From: Myxococcales bacterium
Lineage (GTDB): Bacteria; Myxococcota_A; Polyangia; Polyangiales; Polyangiaceae
Assembly: GCA_947473045.1 (NCBI GenBank)
Contig: CANJCO010000054.1
Span: 1 to 32,732 of the forward strand
Reading direction: 5' to 3'
DNA length: 32,732 nucleotides
In this document: in pieces, positions 16,165-31,853 of the stretch
Numbering within the stretch: the first letter of the stretch is position 1
Layout of the letters: every line of letters starts with the position of its first letter
Translations under genes and position numbers: made by a program
The notes under the pieces: model-generated
Told to the model about the DNA's origin: nothing
The model's database searches: none
The model's input: the letters and a program-made list of their open reading frames with translations, nothing else

Positions 16165-17403
16165 ATGGAACGCGTCGTCGTCACAGGAATCGGTCTCGTT
16201 ACCCCGCTGGCCATCGGCACGCACGAAACCTGGCAGGGGCTGCTCGCAGGTCAGAGCGCGATCGGCCTCATCTCGCTGTTCGACACGTCTGCGTTTCGCG
16301 TAAAAATCGCGGGCGAAGTGAAGTCGTTCGAGCCTTCTCGTTACATCGAGAAGAAGAAGATCAAGGAAATGGGCCGCTTCTGCCAGTTCGCGGTGGTGGC
16401 CGGGCAACTCGCGATCAAAGACGCGGGGCTCACCCTCACCGACGAAGAAAAAGAGCTCGCAGGGTGCTTCGTGGGCGTGGGTCTGGGCGGGCTTGAGGTC
16501 ATCGAAGAGACCAAGCGTGTGGTCATGGAAAAGGGCCCGCAGCGCGTCAGCCCTTACTCGATCCCGGGTATCATCTCGAACCTGGCCGCGGGCCAGATTT
16601 CGATGGAACACGGCTTGAAAGGGCCTTCGTACTGCACGACGAGCGCCTGCTCGAGCGGCGCTCACGCGCTTGGTGAGGCCGTCGAGTGGATCCGCCGGGG
16701 CCGCGTTGAGGTCATGGTCGCGGGCGGCGCGGAGAGCACCGTCTCACCGGTTGGCGTTGGCGGTTTCGAAGCGATGCTTGCGCTCTCCAAGCGCAACGAC
16801 GATCCCACGCGCGCCAGTCGCCCGTGGGACCGCGGGCGCGACGGCTTCGTGATGGGCGAAGGAGCCGGCATTATGGTGCTCGAGTCGCTCACGCGCGCGA
16901 AAAAGCGTGGGGCGAAGATTTACGCGGAGGTAACCGGATACGGCGCCTCGAGCGACGCGCACCATCTCACGCAGCCCAGCCTCGACGGACCGCAACGATC
17001 CATGCGCATGGCGCTCCGCGACGCGGGCGTGTCTGCCGACGACGTCGACTACGTCAACGCGCACGGCACGTCGACGCCCATCGGCGACCTCAACGAGTCG
17101 CGGGCGATCGCCGCAGTATTCGGCGACAACGCGACCTCGAAGCGGCTCTGGGTCAGCTCGACCAAGTCGATGATCGGCCATCTTCTCGGTGCCGCGGGAG
17201 CCGTCGAGAGCGCGATCTGCGCGCTGGCCATTTCGGAGGGCAGGGTTCCGCCGACCATCAACCTCGACGATCCCGATCCCGAGTGTACGCTCGACTACGT
17301 GCCCAACATTGCGCGCGATCGCGTCATTCGTCACGCCGTGAACAACTCGTTCGGCTTCGGCGGAACAAACGCGAGCCTCGTCTTCTCACGCTTCGACGCC
17401 TGA
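16165..17403 (+). CDS. fabF: 3-oxoacyl-ACP synthase II (KAS II)
   Basis: A 412-aa elongating condensing enzyme. The Cys-His-His triad is present: Cys162 in TTSACSSGAHAL, His300 in NAHGTSTPIGD and His339 in KSMIGHLLGAAG. GGAEST and NSFGFGGTNASL are also conserved. ATG 16165 is preceded by a GAGGA-like site. The 128-bp gap after acpP is the longest inside the fabD-fabF block. nrdR starts 21 bp downstream, so transcription probably continues. Confidence 0.96.
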   Translation: MERVVVTGIGLVTPLAIGTHETWQGLLAGQSAIGLISLFDTSAFRVKIAGEVKSFEPSRYIEKKKIKEMGRFCQFAVVAGQLAIKDAGLTLTDEEKELAGCFVGVGLGGLEVIEETKRVVMEKGPQRVSPYSIPGIISNLAAGQISMEHGLKGPSYCTTSACSSGAHALGEAVEWIRRGRVEVMVAGGAESTVSPVGVGGFEAMLALSKRNDDPTRASRPWDRGRDGFVMGEGAGIMVLESLTRAKKRGAKIYAEVTGYGASSDAHHLTQPSLDGPQRSMRMALRDAGVSADDVDYVNAHGTSTPIGDLNESRAIAAVFGDNATSKRLWVSSTKSMIGHLLGAAGAVESAICALAISEGRVPPTINLDDPDPECTLDYVPNIARDRVIRHAVNNSFGFGGTNASLVFSRFDA

Positions 17404-17424
17404 GCGTCAGCCTCAGGATCCCCT

Positions 17425-17898
17425 GTGAAGTGCCCTTTTTGCGCGCATGTTGAGAGCAAGGTGATCGACTCGCGGGCATCTGCGCCCGGCGACGTGATCC
17501 GCAGACGCCGCGAGTGCGAGAGCTGCGCGCGTCGCTTCACGACCTACGAGCGCCTCGACGACATGGTCCCGGTCATCGTCAAAAAGGACGGTCGTCGTGA
17601 GTCGTTCGATCGCCAGAAGCTGCTGGCCGGTCTGTCGCGGGCCTGCGAAAAGCGACCTGTCTCGCGCGAGGCGCTCGATGCGCTCGTCGACGCGGTGGAG
17701 CGCGGACTCATCGACACCGGCGACAAAGAAGTCTCGGCGCGCCTTATCGGCGAGCGCGTGATGCGCGAGCTGTCGGTGCTCGACGACATCGCCTACGTGC
17801 GCTTCGCCAGCGTCTATCGTTCGTTTCGCGACATCTCCGAGCTGCGCGCCGAGGTCGAACGCATCGACATCGCGCAACGCGAAGGCAGGGTATCGTGA
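17425..17898 (+). CDS. nrdR: Transcriptional repressor NrdR
   Basis: A 157-aa regulator of ribonucleotide reductase genes. The N-terminal zinc ribbon has Cys3/Cys6 (MKCPFC) and Cys31/Cys34 (CESC), followed by RRFTTYERLD. The ATP-cone domain (about 49-139) starts at VIVKKDGRRESFDRQKLLAGL. NrdR binds ATP/dATP and represses nrd promoters. No ribonucleotide reductase gene or recognisable NrdR box was seen in this window, so its targets are elsewhere. Start: GTG 17425. Its 3' end overlaps ribD by 4 nt. Confidence 0.96.
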   Translation: MKCPFCAHVESKVIDSRASAPGDVIRRRRECESCARRFTTYERLDDMVPVIVKKDGRRESFDRQKLLAGLSRACEKRPVSREALDALVDAVERGLIDTGDKEVSARLIGERVMRELSVLDDIAYVRFASVYRSFRDISELRAEVERIDIAQREGRVS

Positions 17899-19022
17899 GC
17901 GCTCTCCACGTGTCTCCCGATCGCTCCGATGACGCGTACTACATGGGGCGCGCGCTCGACCTCGCGCGTCAGGGGCGGCCCTCACCCAATCCGCACGTTG
18001 GCGCGCTCGTCGTCAATGGCGGCATCATCGTGGGAGAGGGCTACCACGCAGCCGCCGGCAGCGATCACGCCGAAGTCGCCGCGTTGCGCGCCGCAGGCGA
18101 CCGTGCGGCGGGCGGCACGCTGTTCGTTACCCTCGAGCCCTGCAACCACTTCGGTCGAACGCCTCCGTGCACCGATGCGCTGCATCGCGCCGGCATCACG
18201 CGCGTCGTCGTCGGCTGCCGCGATCCGAACCCGCACGTCGATGGCGGGGGCCTCGAAAAGCTCGTCGACAGGGGGCTCGAAGTCACGGTTGGCGTGCGCG
18301 AAGCCGACGCGCGGCGATCCATCGCTCCCTGGGTGAAGTTCGTCACCACCGGGCTGCCGCACGTATCGCTCAAGTTGGCGCTGTCGCTCGACGGGCGAAT
18401 CGCGACGCGGACGGGGGCGTCGAAGTGGGTGACCGGCCCCGATGCGCGCGCGCGCGTACACGCCTTGCGGGCTGACCACGACGCGGTGGCCGTCGGCATC
18501 GGCACCGCGCTCAGCGATGATCCGCGCCTCACGGTGCGCGATGCGCCCGGAACGAGCCCAACGCGCGTGGTGTTCGATACGCGGCTGCGCCTCCCCCTCG
18601 AATCGCGGTTGGTCAAATCGGCTGGTGAAGTGCCCCTCATCGTGATCGCAAGCGCCGATTCGCCCGCTGCGAATGAAGAGGCGCTGCTGGCGCGCGGAGC
18701 GCAGGTGATCCGGGCTCCGAGCAGCGCTGAAGGCCGAATCGACGTCGCCGGCGCGCTGCGCCTCCTGGCCGCGCGGGGCGTCGTCACGATGCTCGTCGAA
18801 GGCGGAGCCGAGCTCGCGGGCAGCTTCCTCGCGGCCCGCCTTGCCGACGAGCTCCACGCGTTCATCGCGCCGATCCTGCTCGGTCCGAGGGGTCGCCCGG
18901 GGGCCGTGGACTGGGCCGGTCCGGACGTGCCCGCCCACGCTCCGCGCATCGTGGACCCTTCGTGGGAAGTGTGCGGCGACGACGCGCACGTGTTCGGGCG
19001 AATCGACTACCCCGAGAGCTGA
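17895..19022 (+). CDS. ribD: Bifunctional riboflavin deaminase/reductase
   Basis: A 375-aa protein for steps two and three of riboflavin synthesis. The N-terminal deaminase domain has the zinc motif HAEVAAL (His58, Glu60) and EPCNHFGRTPPC (Cys83, Cys92). The C-terminal reductase domain begins near VSLKLALSLDGRIA and includes GASKWVTGPDAR. The GTG start overlaps the nrdR stop, so translation is probably coupled. No FMN riboswitch is visible upstream, and the other rib genes are not in the window. Confidence 0.95.
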   Translation: MSALHVSPDRSDDAYYMGRALDLARQGRPSPNPHVGALVVNGGIIVGEGYHAAAGSDHAEVAALRAAGDRAAGGTLFVTLEPCNHFGRTPPCTDALHRAGITRVVVGCRDPNPHVDGGGLEKLVDRGLEVTVGVREADARRSIAPWVKFVTTGLPHVSLKLALSLDGRIATRTGASKWVTGPDARARVHALRADHDAVAVGIGTALSDDPRLTVRDAPGTSPTRVVFDTRLRLPLESRLVKSAGEVPLIVIASADSPAANEEALLARGAQVIRAPSSAEGRIDVAGALRLLAARGVVTMLVEGGAELAGSFLAARLADELHAFIAPILLGPRGRPGAVDWAGPDVPAHAPRIVDPSWEVCGDDAHVFGRIDYPES

Positions 19023-19625: not shown

Positions 19626-21701
19626 CTAGCGGCTGGGCTTTTTGAAGGCGCTCGTATCGACGCGCTGTCCTCGTGCGGCGGACTCGCTGATCACGCGCGG
19701 CGTGATCCCGGTGGCCACGTGCCCTTCGCCGGACTCGTCGGCCACGAAGACGTCGCGGGTCGCGATGCCGGTTGCGCTGTCGGCGGCGAGCTCGGCGATG
19801 CGCCCGACGCGGTAGCGCCCGTCGCTCAGTTGGTGCACCTCAATCGCGATGTCGAAGGCTTCGGCGATGCACGAGCGGGCAGCGTCGGTTGACATACCCG
19901 GACGCGACAGCAGCAGCTGAGAGACGAGTCTCGCGAGGCCCTGTCGAAGGGAGGGCGCGGTAGACGCAGCGAGCACGCCTTCTGCGCCTTGCCCGACGGC
20001 TTCGAGGGTGGAAGTGAGCGCCCCGCTGGCGAGGTTGCTCACGATCCAGCGGTCGGGGCGGGTGCGCGCGGCGGCGTGAAGCAGCTCGTCGCTCCCGATA
20101 CCAGCGCGGAGCCGGAGGGCGTGGACCGGTCCGACGTTGAGCTCCTCTTCTTCACCCGCGACGACCACGCGCTCGCCCGGCGAGCTGCTCGACGCCAGCG
20201 CCGCGACAAACCCGACCGACGCCGATGCGCTCGAACCGCAGACGAGCAGGTTCGTCTTCGCGAACAGGCACGCCTCGAGGAAATTGGCCATCGCGCGGCT
20301 GAGCGCGCCGAGCCGCACGAAATCTTCGAGCGCCATTTCGACGCGGCGGCGCTTGCGAATGATGAGCGCGTGGCTCTGCGATCCCGGCGGCGCGAACGCG
20401 ATCATGTGCGCGCCTCGCGGCAAGTGTCGAACGATGCTCGTCTCGCCGGCTGCCACCGGCTCGCCGGACTGGGCCGCGAGGCGCCCGATCGCGCGACCGA
20501 GGGCCGCGTCGGTCGTGAATCCGGCGTCTGCGAGCGCCAGCCCGGACGACTTCACGAGCAGCACCTGATCGTGCCGCGAGCAGTGAATCTCGGTCGCGTC
20601 GTCGTCGTCGAGCGCGGCGCTCAGCGCCCCCAACCCCACGAGCTCGCGAAGCGCGTCTTTCGAGAGTGAGTCGACCGTGACGCCCTCGGGCAGGCCCTCG
20701 TCGGCAGCCATGGCCTTCGCCTGCTCGAGCGCGAGGCGCTCCAGGCTTGCGCGCGTTCCCTCGCTTACCGGGTGTGCATCGAGCTCGGAGAGATCGGCGA
20801 CGTCGGCGATGCGATCGAGCAGCGTGACGAGGGCGAGTCGGCGTCCGGCCTGCACTGGCGATTCGCGCGGCGGCAGGCGGGACGGCACGGAGGAGGGCAC
20901 GGTGCGCGCCGGCGCGGATGCGGCCACCGACGGCGCTGCAGGCTGAGGCGGCGGAGCTACCGACGGGGAGCGCGGCGCGGGCGCCGGCGCCTGCTGCGCG
21001 GGCGGCGACGCGGGGAGAGCGAGCGTGCTGCGGCCAGGCGCAACATTGGCCATTGACGGCATGCGGGGCGGCGCCGGCACCTTGGCGGCCGGGGCCGGGG
21101 CACCCCTGAGCTCGGCGTCATCGGTCGGCTGATCGGGAGGCGACGTCGGCGCTGCGAGATCGCGCGTCACGGCGGGCGGCTGCGCGCGCGGGGCGGGCGC
21201 TTGAGCCACGGAGGGCAGAGGTGCGCGCGGGGCGGCTACTGCCGGTTGCGGCCGCTGCGGAGCAGCAGGCGCGGGCTGTGGCACGGGGGGCGGAGCCGCG
21301 GGCACAGGCGGGGGCGCGGGGGCTGCAGCCATCGGCGGCGGTGGCGGCGCGAAAGGCGGCGGCATGTGGCCTGCTCCGGTGGCGTCTTCGACGCTCGCCT
21401 CACCTTCGGCGCTGCCGGTGTCGACCCGCAGGATGAAGTCGCCGATGTAGATCTTGTCGCCTTCGCGAACAATCGTCGCCTGCGCGATTTTGCGCCCGTT
21501 GACGTACGTTCCGTTGGTGCTCTTCAGGTCGGTGACGATGAATCGTCCATCGCGGTAGAGCAAACGCGAGTGGTGCTTGGAGACGTTGCCCTTGGGCAAC
21601 ATGAGATCGTTGCCCTGCACGCGGCCGACGTTGATCTCGTTCTTGTCGAACGTCTCCCTGCGCTCTGCGCCGCCCTTCTCGCTGATGATGATCGCGAACA
21701 T
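19626..21701 (-). CDS. FHA domain fused to a CpaF/TadA-like pseudo-ATPase
   Basis: A 691-aa cytoplasmic protein. The FHA phosphopeptide-binding domain (about 1-95) keeps its key residues: Gly26-Arg27, SKHH (41-44) and STNGT (61-65). A Pro/Ala-rich linker runs to about 284. The C-terminal part follows the secretion-ATPase (CpaF/TadA, GspE superfamily) layout, but three catalytic sites are lost. The P-loop reads GSSASAS (489-495) with no GKT, RPDRWIVSN (548-556) lacks the usual Walker-B Glu, and the His box is replaced by STAP. It is probably a scaffold or a regulatory partner, not an ATPase. The ORF is open to 21734, but ATG 21701 has AGAGG 5 nt upstream and starts the FHA domain. It may read signals from Ser/Thr kinases such as the one at 30138-31853. 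Confidence 0.88.
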   Translation of the reverse strand: MFAIIISEKGGAERRETFDKNEINVGRVQGNDLMLPKGNVSKHHSRLLYRDGRFIVTDLKSTNGTYVNGRKIAQATIVREGDKIYIGDFILRVDTGSAEGEASVEDATGAGHMPPPFAPPPPPMAAAPAPPPVPAAPPPVPQPAPAAPQRPQPAVAAPRAPLPSVAQAPAPRAQPPAVTRDLAAPTSPPDQPTDDAELRGAPAPAAKVPAPPRMPSMANVAPGRSTLALPASPPAQQAPAPAPRSPSVAPPPQPAAPSVAASAPARTVPSSVPSRLPPRESPVQAGRRLALVTLLDRIADVADLSELDAHPVSEGTRASLERLALEQAKAMAADEGLPEGVTVDSLSKDALRELVGLGALSAALDDDDATEIHCSRHDQVLLVKSSGLALADAGFTTDAALGRAIGRLAAQSGEPVAAGETSIVRHLPRGAHMIAFAPPGSQSHALIIRKRRRVEMALEDFVRLGALSRAMANFLEACLFAKTNLLVCGSSASASVGFVAALASSSSPGERVVVAGEEEELNVGPVHALRLRAGIGSDELLHAAARTRPDRWIVSNLASGALTSTLEAVGQGAEGVLAASTAPSLRQGLARLVSQLLLSRPGMSTDAARSCIAEAFDIAIEVHQLSDGRYRVGRIAELAADSATGIATRDVFVADESGEGHVATGITPRVISESAARGQRVDTSAFKKPSR

Positions 21702-21828
21702 TCGTACCTCTGGAGGTGCGGGGCCTTTGGCCACGCGGGCGTTTGGTGCTCTCCCGCCCGCAGCGCCGGGAGCGGCTTGGCGGACAGGGTCGCAGAAGCG
21801 CGCCGCGAAAGCGCCGACGCTGGGCCGA

Positions 21829-21858
21829 ATTGTCGGTTTACCGAGCGGCAGATGTCAA
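21829..21858 (-). promoter_or_regulatory. Candidate sigma-70-type promoter for the FHA gene
   Basis: On the minus strand TTGACA (21853-21858) is followed after 18 nt by GACAAT (21829-21834): a perfect -35 and a 4/6 -10. It would give a 5' leader of roughly 120 nt before the FHA start at 21701. This is the clearest promoter-like pair I found. The spacer is 1 nt longer than optimal. Confidence 0.45.
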
Positions 21859-21909: not shown

Positions 21910-22092
21910 TCAGGCTCCCGTGCGCTTCTGCTTCACTTCTGCGGCCACGATGCCGAGCATCTCGCCCGCGAGCGCCATCACGTCGCGCTCGCTGAAGCCT
22001 CCGGCGCGCAGCTCCCGGTAGATCGTCTTGGCAAGAATGCCGACGGTGCGCGGGTCGCGGTTGCCGGTCGATACATCGAAGGGAAGGGCCAT
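21910..22092 (-). CDS. Small conserved-looking protein, 60 aa
   Basis: This 60-aa ORF starts MALPFDVSTG and contains TVGILAKTIYREL and a second helix VMALAGEMLGIVAAEV. It looks like a soluble two- or three-helix protein with heptad-like hydrophobic spacing, and it has a normal, non-repetitive amino-acid composition. It is the tail of a much longer open frame whose upstream part is low-complexity Arg-rich shadow sequence. The ATG at 22092 starts exactly where composition turns protein-like, with a GAG-containing site before it. Such alanine/leucine helical miniproteins often act as partners or regulators; no family name can be assigned. It is upstream of, and co-directional with, the FHA gene. 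Confidence 0.6.
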   Translation of the reverse strand: MALPFDVSTGNRDPRTVGILAKTIYRELRAGGFSERDVMALAGEMLGIVAAEVKQKRTGA

Positions 22093-30137: not shown

Positions 30138-31853
30138 TCACGGATTTTCTACGAGCGATCGCACCGTCGCGCGAGACTCGCATCGCGCGATCGACGCGGT
30201 GAGATCGAGGCCGTCCGGCAGCATGCCCTGAACCTGTCCGACGATTTGCTCGACGAGGTTCCTGGCCTCTTGCGGGCCGGGCCCCGCCATCGCCACGGCG
30301 AACCGCAGCGGCCCCGTGTGGCCAGCCGTGACCGCGATGAGCGACAGCAGGAACATGTCGGTGAGCTCGACCACGCGCGAGGCGGCGCGGCGGAGCGCGA
30401 GCATCTCGAGGATGGTGGGCCGATCGCTTACTACGCGGTTGGGGCCACGAATCTCGTAGCGCGCGATCGATAGCGGGGCATCGACCCACTCCGCGAACGC
30501 GGCCTCTTCGTCGAGCGCCCGGAGCAGGTCTTCCTGCTTGAGGAGCCCGGTGAGTCCGTCCCGGCGCGCGAGGTAGGCGCGAGCGCGCTTGTGCCCCGAG
30601 CTTTCGCGCGCGAACGACACGAGCTTGAAGCGCAGCTCACCGAGCTGAACTTCGCCTCCGTGAAGCAGGCTCACGCTCTTTTTGCGCTCGTAGGTGTGGT
30701 CGGCGTAGGTGCCGTTGGTCGATCCGGCGTCTTCGACAAACCACGAACCGGCCTGCCATTTCACCCGCGCGTGCTGGCCGCTGACGGTGGCCTCGGGCAC
30801 CACGATTTCGTTGTCGCTTCGGCGACCGATCGTGAGCTCGGGCTTGTCGAGGGCGATGAGCTCGCCGACGAAATCGTGCGCGTTGCTGGCGAAGGTCGCG
30901 AGCAGGCTCTGCTGGCCCGGCGCAAACTGATTTTGCGAGCTGCGACCCAGCGGCGCGCCCGGATCGAGGCGCTCGATCGGCAGCTGCACCGGGTTGGTCG
31001 TCAGGGTCACCGGATTGAAAAACCGCAGGTGGCGCGCGGGCAGGCGCTGCGCGGGATCGTCGGCGAGGCAGCGGAAAATCTGCTTGATCTCGTCGACCGA
31101 CAGACCCGCCGGGACGTCGAACATGATCTGCGACTTCATCGACTTCGCGCGGGGCTTGTAGCCCGGCTCGGGCACGCGGCAGGTCCACATTTCCCACAGC
31201 GTGAGCCCCAGCGCGTAGACGTCGTCTTCCGAAGACGCGCCGCCGGACCGGATGCGCTCGGGGGACATGTAGTTCGGCGTTCCGCCATCGGGAGGGGCGC
31301 CGGGCCTGCGGGCGCTGACGCGGGCGCGCTCTTTTGCAAAGCCGAAATCGAGCACCACGGCCTTGCCGACCGAGCCGTCGGCGTTGGTGGTCACCATCAC
31401 GTTGCCGGGCTTGAGGTCGCCGTGGACGAGGCCCTGCGCGTGAATGGCGCCCACGCCGGATGAGATCTCGCTCGCGAGGCGCCGAAACTCGTCGGCCGTA
31501 TAGCCGCCCTGGGCCTTCTTGCGGCGGATGTGCGTGTGGAGCGTCTGCCCCGTCATGTATTCCATGACGAGGATCGGACCGAACAGGGAGGGGGCGAGAT
31601 CGTGGACGCGGCAGACGTTGGGGTGGCTCACCGAGCGGGCGTGGAGCAGCTCCTGCCGCAGCGCTTCGTCGTCGCCGGGCATGCGCGCTTCTTCGCGGAC
31701 CACCTTGAGGGCCACGGCCTGCTGCGTCGATCGATCGTAGGCGAGAAAGACCTCGCCCATGCCGCCCTTGCCGAGGCTCTGACGAATCTCGTAGCGCTCG
31801 TTGACGATGGACCCTGTGGTTATCGGCGGCGCGCTTCGTGTGGCTTCGGACAT
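30138..31853 (-). CDS. Ser/Thr protein kinase with FHA and degenerate GGDEF-like domains
   Basis: A 571-aa soluble protein. The kinase domain (about 21-280) has GKGGMGEV (28-35), the ATP Lys50 in VALK, HGDLKPGN (144-151; Gly in place of Arg before the catalytic Asp146), DFG (169-171) and SPE (197-199). All catalytic residues are present, so activity is expected. The FHA domain (about 330-412) has IGRRSDNEI, SGQHARV and STNGTYAD. The tail (428-571) opens with RRDGLTGLLKQEDLL, like the start of a diguanylate cyclase domain. The signature position reads LTDMF (497-501) and not GGDEF, so it cannot be a normal cyclase. No membrane segment. Likely an operon with the membrane protein downstream. Confidence 0.9.
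   Translation of the reverse strand: MSEATRSAPPITTGSIVNERYEIRQSLGKGGMGEVFLAYDRSTQQAVALKVVREEARMPGDDEALRQELLHARSVSHPNVCRVHDLAPSLFGPILVMEYMTGQTLHTHIRRKKAQGGYTADEFRRLASEISSGVGAIHAQGLVHGDLKPGNVMVTTNADGSVGKAVVLDFGFAKERARVSARRPGAPPDGGTPNYMSPERIRSGGASSEDDVYALGLTLWEMWTCRVPEPGYKPRAKSMKSQIMFDVPAGLSVDEIKQIFRCLADDPAQRLPARHLRFFNPVTLTTNPVQLPIERLDPGAPLGRSSQNQFAPGQQSLLATFASNAHDFVGELIALDKPELTIGRRSDNEIVVPEATVSGQHARVKWQAGSWFVEDAGSTNGTYADHTYERKKSVSLLHGGEVQLGELRFKLVSFARESSGHKRARAYLARRDGLTGLLKQEDLLRALDEEAAFAEWVDAPLSIARYEIRGPNRVVSDRPTILEMLALRRAASRVVELTDMFLLSLIAVTAGHTGPLRFAVAMAGPGPQEARNLVEQIVGQVQGMLPDGLDLTASIARCESRATVRSLVENP

Follow-up and report, generated by a model that had tools for sequence, protein, structure and literature searches.

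An FHA-fused, CpaF-like protein lineage of Myxococcota with lost ATPase sites, possibly repurposed as a phospho-signalling scaffold

The window (the whole stretch of DNA analysed, 32,732 nucleotides from a Myxococcales bacterium) contains a gene, P0001, coding for a 691 amino acid protein on the minus strand, with an ATG at 21701 and a stop codon at 19626-19628; an alternative in-frame start, GTG at 21734, would give a 702 amino acid product. The domain order is FHA domain, Pro/Ala linker, CpaF/TadA domain. The linker (190 residues) is poorly conserved among orthologues, and the last domain is predicted to comprise a three-helix bundle, an NTD and a C-terminal ATPase-like domain. The features of the locus are the following:

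19626..21701, minus strand: FHA–linker–pseudo-CpaF gene P0001 (open frame, ATG, N-terminus conserved family-wide)
21441..21632, minus strand: FHA domain, residues 24-87 (Pfam PF00498, E = 9.6e-17)
20850..21419, minus strand: Pro/Ala-rich linker, residues 95-284 (composition, 55% P+A)
19629..20849, minus strand: CpaF/TadA-fold domain, residues 285-691 (AlphaFold and structural superposition)
20454..20468, minus strand: loop 8 equivalent SGEPV, CpaF GRRxD platform contact lost (comparison of CpaF platform residues)
20217..20237, minus strand: dead P-loop GSSASAS, residues 489-495 (alignment with 26 orthologues and intact paralogues)
20139..20153, minus strand: Asp-box equivalent EEEEL, E312 equivalent retained (mapping on CpaF)
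20085..20114, minus strand: shortened extended pore loop RLRAGIGSDE, E331 and G334 columns empty (comparison of CpaF platform residues)
20034..20060, minus strand: Walker-B equivalent RPDRWIVSN, residues 548-556, Glu replaced by Asn556 (alignment)
19947..19970, minus strand: His-box equivalent AASTAPSL (STAP = 580-583), His replaced by Thr581 (alignment)
21829..21858, minus strand: sigma-70-like promoter TTGACA-18-GACAAT between P0002 and P0001 (consensus scan, 10/12, which is not evidence of function)
21910..22092, minus strand: conserved small protein P0002 of 60 amino acids, directly upstream of P0001 (position, predicted structure)

T2SSE (PF00437) was not reported for P0001 in the Pfam search. 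NCBIfam models matched it as a TadA-family ATPase (TIGR03819, residues 329-636, E = 6e-29), TrbB (9e-22) and VirB11 (5e-19), all under their curated cut-offs, and a profile search of PDB sequences gave CpaF at 6e-78, VirB11 at 4e-32 and FlaI/GspE at 2e-30. Residues 285-691 (407 amino acids) were modelled with AlphaFold from an input of 55 orthologues from named genomes (mean pLDDT 94.5, pTM 0.88). CpaF chains are the top Foldseek matches of this core model, and in VIA-align it superposes on 8rjf (TadA/CpaF with ADP) with a Z-score of 35.1 and an rmsd of 4.1 over 401 of its 407 residues, against a Z-score of about 27 or less for every family other than CpaF. The active secretion ATPases VirB11, PilT, PilB and FlaI share the fold superfamily (Z about 18-27) and are more distant from P0001 than CpaF is. 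The likeness of the core to CpaF far exceeds chance. The initial annotation had described a secretion-ATPase framework in the C-terminal half; a confident model from residue 285 onwards, related to secretion ATPases and superposing on TadA/CpaF, bears this out. Domain order and fold are those of class III CpaF/TadA, whose architecture is FHA, disordered region, three-helix bundle, NTD and CAD (PMC12019362).

P0001 differs from class III CpaF/TadA in that the catalytic Lys, Glu and His and two arginine fingers are replaced, and in that loop 8 and the extended pore loop, which contact CpaG/CpaH, are lacking. Compared with the intact FHA-CpaF of the same genome, the catalytic Lys column is occupied by S495, the Walker-B Glu by N556 and the His-box His by T581. 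In the numbering of Caulobacter CpaF (PMC12019362), K287 has become Ser, T288 Val and D215 Val, and His has replaced arginine fingers R217 and R223; only the third finger, the R347 equivalent, is retained, as are the E312 equivalent and the first P-loop Gly. The P-loop, which reads GSSASASV, does not fit the Walker A pattern Gx4GK[ST]. The motifs GSSASAS, RPDRWIVSN and STAP stand at the positions and with the letters first reported for them, and the earlier proposal of a pseudo-ATPase is supported, on sequence grounds, by the replacement of three catalytic sites in a retained CpaF fold. P0001 would thus neither bind nor hydrolyse ATP.

These losses are shared by relatives. The P-loop Lys is absent in 26 of 26 orthologues and the Walker-B Glu in all 25 that span the site (the family and one allied family in both cases), and the Lys is also missing from all families examined of the window's order. 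An apparent His-box His in one orthologue (L051) falls in a gapped stretch of the alignment. Replacement residues at the lost sites vary among genera. The degenerate P-loop thus represents a loss conserved across the clade and not a recent point decay. A genome of the same genus (G001, 61% identity) carries the identical degenerate P-loop, CGSSASAS, and sequencing error is therefore excluded.

The FHA domain, which had initially been described as intact, does appear so from its sequence: residues G26, R27, N39, S41, H44, S61, T62, N63, G64 and N68 are identical in 32 of 32 orthologues. In known FHA domains these residues (G-R, S-x-x-H, S-T-N-G and N) make up the phospho-threonine site, and the FHA domain of P0001 would be expected to bind phospho-threonine. 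Among the 30 closest pairs, nearly all of them dead members, dN/dS (Nei-Gojobori) ranges from 0.02 to 0.32 in the core and is at most 0.16, mostly below 0.1, in the FHA region, apart from one outlier of 0.50 that comes from a pair with a badly matched FHA segment. Judged by these ratios, purifying selection acts on the P0001 lineage. That P0001 is a pseudogene, created by recent point decay or sequencing error, is suggested by its degenerate motifs and by nothing more; with CGSSASAS also present in G001, all family orthologues degenerate and purifying selection acting, the orthologues and dN/dS rule this explanation out for practical purposes. Relative to G021, identity is 82% for the FHA domain, 52% for the P0001 core and 78% for the intact plain CpaF; the core and intact CpaF give 46% versus 73% for G005 and 44% versus 75% for G012. 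The core has therefore diverged about twice as much as intact CpaF in these three comparisons. A full-length core and the C-terminal tail RGxxxDxSxFxR are retained in nearly every uncut contig.

The FHA part was found in 105 of 189 Myxococcota genomes (E = 1e-25 or better), at one place in each with two exceptions, a distribution that identifies the gene as a near single-copy lineage across the phylum. Labilithrix, Sorangium, Polyangium, Minicystis and Byssovorax are the taxa named among the contig matches. The ATPase domain is intact in families f13, f19, f22, f25, f28 and f30; these orthologues have the same signature FHA domain and belong to the same gene lineage as P0001 but, unlike it, possess full GGTGSGKTT, GE and HAN motifs and a pore-loop segment of 24 residues. 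In f24 the His alone is lost. Family f23 retains the Lys, often has Asp for Glu and has lost the His; most of f39 retains Lys and Glu, and usually His too; parts of f37 and f41 retain the P-loop Lys. The Lys is changed to Arg in f14, f26, f29, f31, f49 and others, and in the window's order to Val, Thr, Ala, Ser and others, with Arg in f6. When the motif columns are left out of the tree, at least 5-6 changes in the state of the Lys are counted, and a single clade of all Lys-less members is rejected (p-AU = 5e-64). On taxonomy alone, the window's class includes members with the Lys and members that lack it, and both kinds are also found outside that class. From the tree and the taxonomy we conclude that the ATPase sites were lost several times independently; because taxonomy alone mixes the two kinds of member in this way, multiple losses hold whatever their order. 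Slow, intact lineages lie near the root of the tree and long branches may distort the order of losses; since slow and fast lineages are mixed, no order of events is claimed.

The CpaF residues that contact the pilus platform are G204, R205, R206 and D208 of loop 8 and E331 and G334 of the pore loop (PMC12019362). They are complete in the 8 of 8 members that are fully active and lost from the dead ones; E331 is absent in all 38 members whose Lys has given way to any residue but Arg. The pore-loop segment is 24 residues long in active members, compared with a median of 18 or 16 in dead ones. P0001 reads GEPVA at the GRRxD site of loop 8 and lacks these platform contacts. Five members of f39 (L294, L301, L307, L309 and L313) retain Lys, Glu and His and have lost the platform contacts, and therefore platform uncoupling is not simply a consequence of ATPase loss. 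From their sequences, these five orthologues are possibly active ATPases uncoupled from a pilus.

A Tad locus is present elsewhere in this genome, on contig C42. It has two intact ATPases (L037 12382-13524 and 16977-18791, minus strand), a plain CpaF and a KilF-like FHA-CpaF, the latter at 16977-18791; the active FHA-CpaF paralogue whose existence had been proposed as worth a search is thus found. In the tree it falls in an outgroup clade separate from P0001 (SH-aLRT 100); KilF itself is absent from that tree. In Myxococcus xanthus, KilF is the FHA-fused ATPase of a Tad-like system for contact-dependent killing (PMC8460266). P0001, from the same phylum, likewise has an N-terminal FHA fused to a CpaF domain; KilF, however, serves as motor in an assembled apparatus and its gene lies with those of that apparatus, whereas P0001 is, to judge from its motifs, catalytically dead and is encoded elsewhere.

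The plain CpaF of this genome was then used as query in 39 relatives. Intact CpaF is present in 28 of them; the other 11 give no CpaF match at E = 1e-40 and yet have the pseudo-CpaF gene, several of these genomes being 96-100% complete (for example G020, 13.5 Mb in 7 contigs and 99% complete, and G028, 100% complete), with the proviso that absence of CpaF depends on search thresholds and assembly completeness. Likewise, 12 of 40 further genomes retain the pseudo-CpaF gene with no CpaF match at 1e-30. Since the gene is retained where CpaF is not detectable, it is not kept solely to serve a CpaF motor.

In Polyangiaceae the neighbours of the gene are def, ribD, nrdR and fatty-acid (fab) genes, named by reading their sequences, and P0001 is neither encoded with Tad/Kil genes nor consistently co-occurs with them. 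In f19 and f30, two of the intact families, a CpaC-type secretin (assigned by Pfam in f30 and extended to f19 by similarity) directly precedes the gene, and a protein with FHA domains comes after it. Other families still have a double-FHA protein after the gene, and in some of them this protein also carries TPR repeats; FHA-domain proteins in this position are found at:

L338 8005-10101
L339 12862-15069
L327 6522-7886
L333 5860-7374
L346 6971-8395

Neither the secretin nor the double-FHA protein lies beside the gene in Polyangiaceae. The FHA-domain protein is possibly an ancestral partner. For P0001 itself such a partnership was considered and rejected, as this genome has no clear orthologue of the double-FHA protein, FHA-domain matches only.

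We propose, with a probability of roughly 0.5, that P0001 began as a motor of the Tad/Kil type and now serves Ser/Thr-kinase signalling as a scaffold that carries an FHA domain and does not hydrolyse ATP. It would descend from an FHA-bearing class III CpaF such as that of a Kil/Tad apparatus; on the way to this genome, its lineage would have lost the pilus-platform contacts and the ATPase centre and kept the fold and the FHA domain. The CpaF-like domain would then form a rigid, probably oligomeric, non-hydrolysing base, oligomerisation being a guess, from which FHA domains on a flexible Pro/Ala tether would bind the threonine-phosphorylated proteins produced by the numerous Ser/Thr kinases of such bacteria, so that phosphorylated partners might be collected at a single site without dependence on a Tad motor. 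Signalling as the job of the protein is suggested by the survival of the gene in species without the pilus motor, and P0001 is therefore probably a phospho-signalling scaffold now. In this wider sense the phospho-controlled scaffold of the initial annotation is still the best guess; its more specific parts, the joining or capping of a CpaF hexamer and the link between kinases and the pilus, are not supported.

In that more specific form, P0001 would join or cap an active CpaF hexamer and couple kinase signalling to assembly of the Tad/Kil pilus. The CpaF fold of P0001, the intact FHA-CpaF and plain CpaF at the separate Tad locus and the intact CpaF of 28 of the 39 relatives are what such a cap would lead one to expect. 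However, many genomes retain the gene with no detectable intact CpaF (11/39 and 12/40), the platform contacts of loop 8 and the pore loop are lost, and in Polyangiaceae the gene lies away from Tad genes, adjoining def-ribD-nrdR-fab; we consider a cap or partner of the hexamer very improbable. It is also conceivable, albeit unlikely, that the FHA domain alone matters, with the CpaF-like part surviving as a slowly eroding structural relic by which the protein stays soluble or dimeric. Evolution of the core is faster than that of both the FHA domain and intact CpaF, and the core could therefore be a passive FHA carrier only; in addition, catalytic and platform sites were lost many times with varied replacements. 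Yet core dN/dS is clearly below 1 in close pairs, and mere erosion does not sit well with a full-length core and tail in nearly every uncut contig.

Somewhat less likely still is a role as sensor or switch in which P0001 would still bind, and not hydrolyse, a nucleotide or second messenger. In its favour, P0001 retains the first P-loop Gly, the Asp-box Glu and the R347 equivalent, the Lys is conservatively changed to Arg in many related lineages, and binding of cyclic-di-GMP by export ATPases is reported (PMC4591828). But the P-loop of P0001 has neither Lys/Arg nor Thr, two arginine fingers are His, and no conserved replacement site was recognised. As f23, f39 and parts of f37 and f41 retain the P-loop Lys, nucleotide binding may still matter in those families.

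Taking the scaffold reading further, we tentatively suggest, and hold it to be possible though somewhat doubtful, that a Myxococcota motor ATPase was uncoupled from its platform several times independently and became a dead, FHA-displaying ring, a new signalling hub that is selected even without a Tad motor. In the open-access literature searched on secretion or pilus pseudo-ATPases and on FHA with CpaF, only the CpaF structure and Kil papers proved relevant. We know of no described pseudo-ATPase family of the VirB11/CpaF type, and that open-access literature yielded none. Because members of one gene lineage range naturally from fully active to wholly dead, it becomes possible to ask what contacts disappeared and at what stage, and what role an FHA-CpaF has apart from driving a pilus. 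If the scaffold reading is true, the kinase-rich myxobacteria would have a phylum-wide phospho-reader hub, and caution would be due before each gene of the CpaF type is taken for a Tad motor.

The P0001 locus has no consistent link to any kinase or substrate. The window also contains a Ser/Thr kinase with a C-terminal FHA domain (30138-31853, minus strand; Pkinase 5.9e-43, FHA 3.3e-15), 8.4 kb from P0001; it is a candidate for a link to P0001 and not a conserved neighbour. The 60 amino acid protein P0002 (MALPFD...DPRTVGILAKTIYRELRAGGFSERDVMALAGEMLG...) belongs to no Pfam family. Its model is a two-helix hairpin (pLDDT 85.8), with no structural match at E under 7. With a sigma-70-like promoter lying between P0002 and P0001, co-transcription is not implied. 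P0002 is a candidate partner by position only: it lies 208 nt upstream of P0001 in the same direction, and occupies the same place in >45 related loci.
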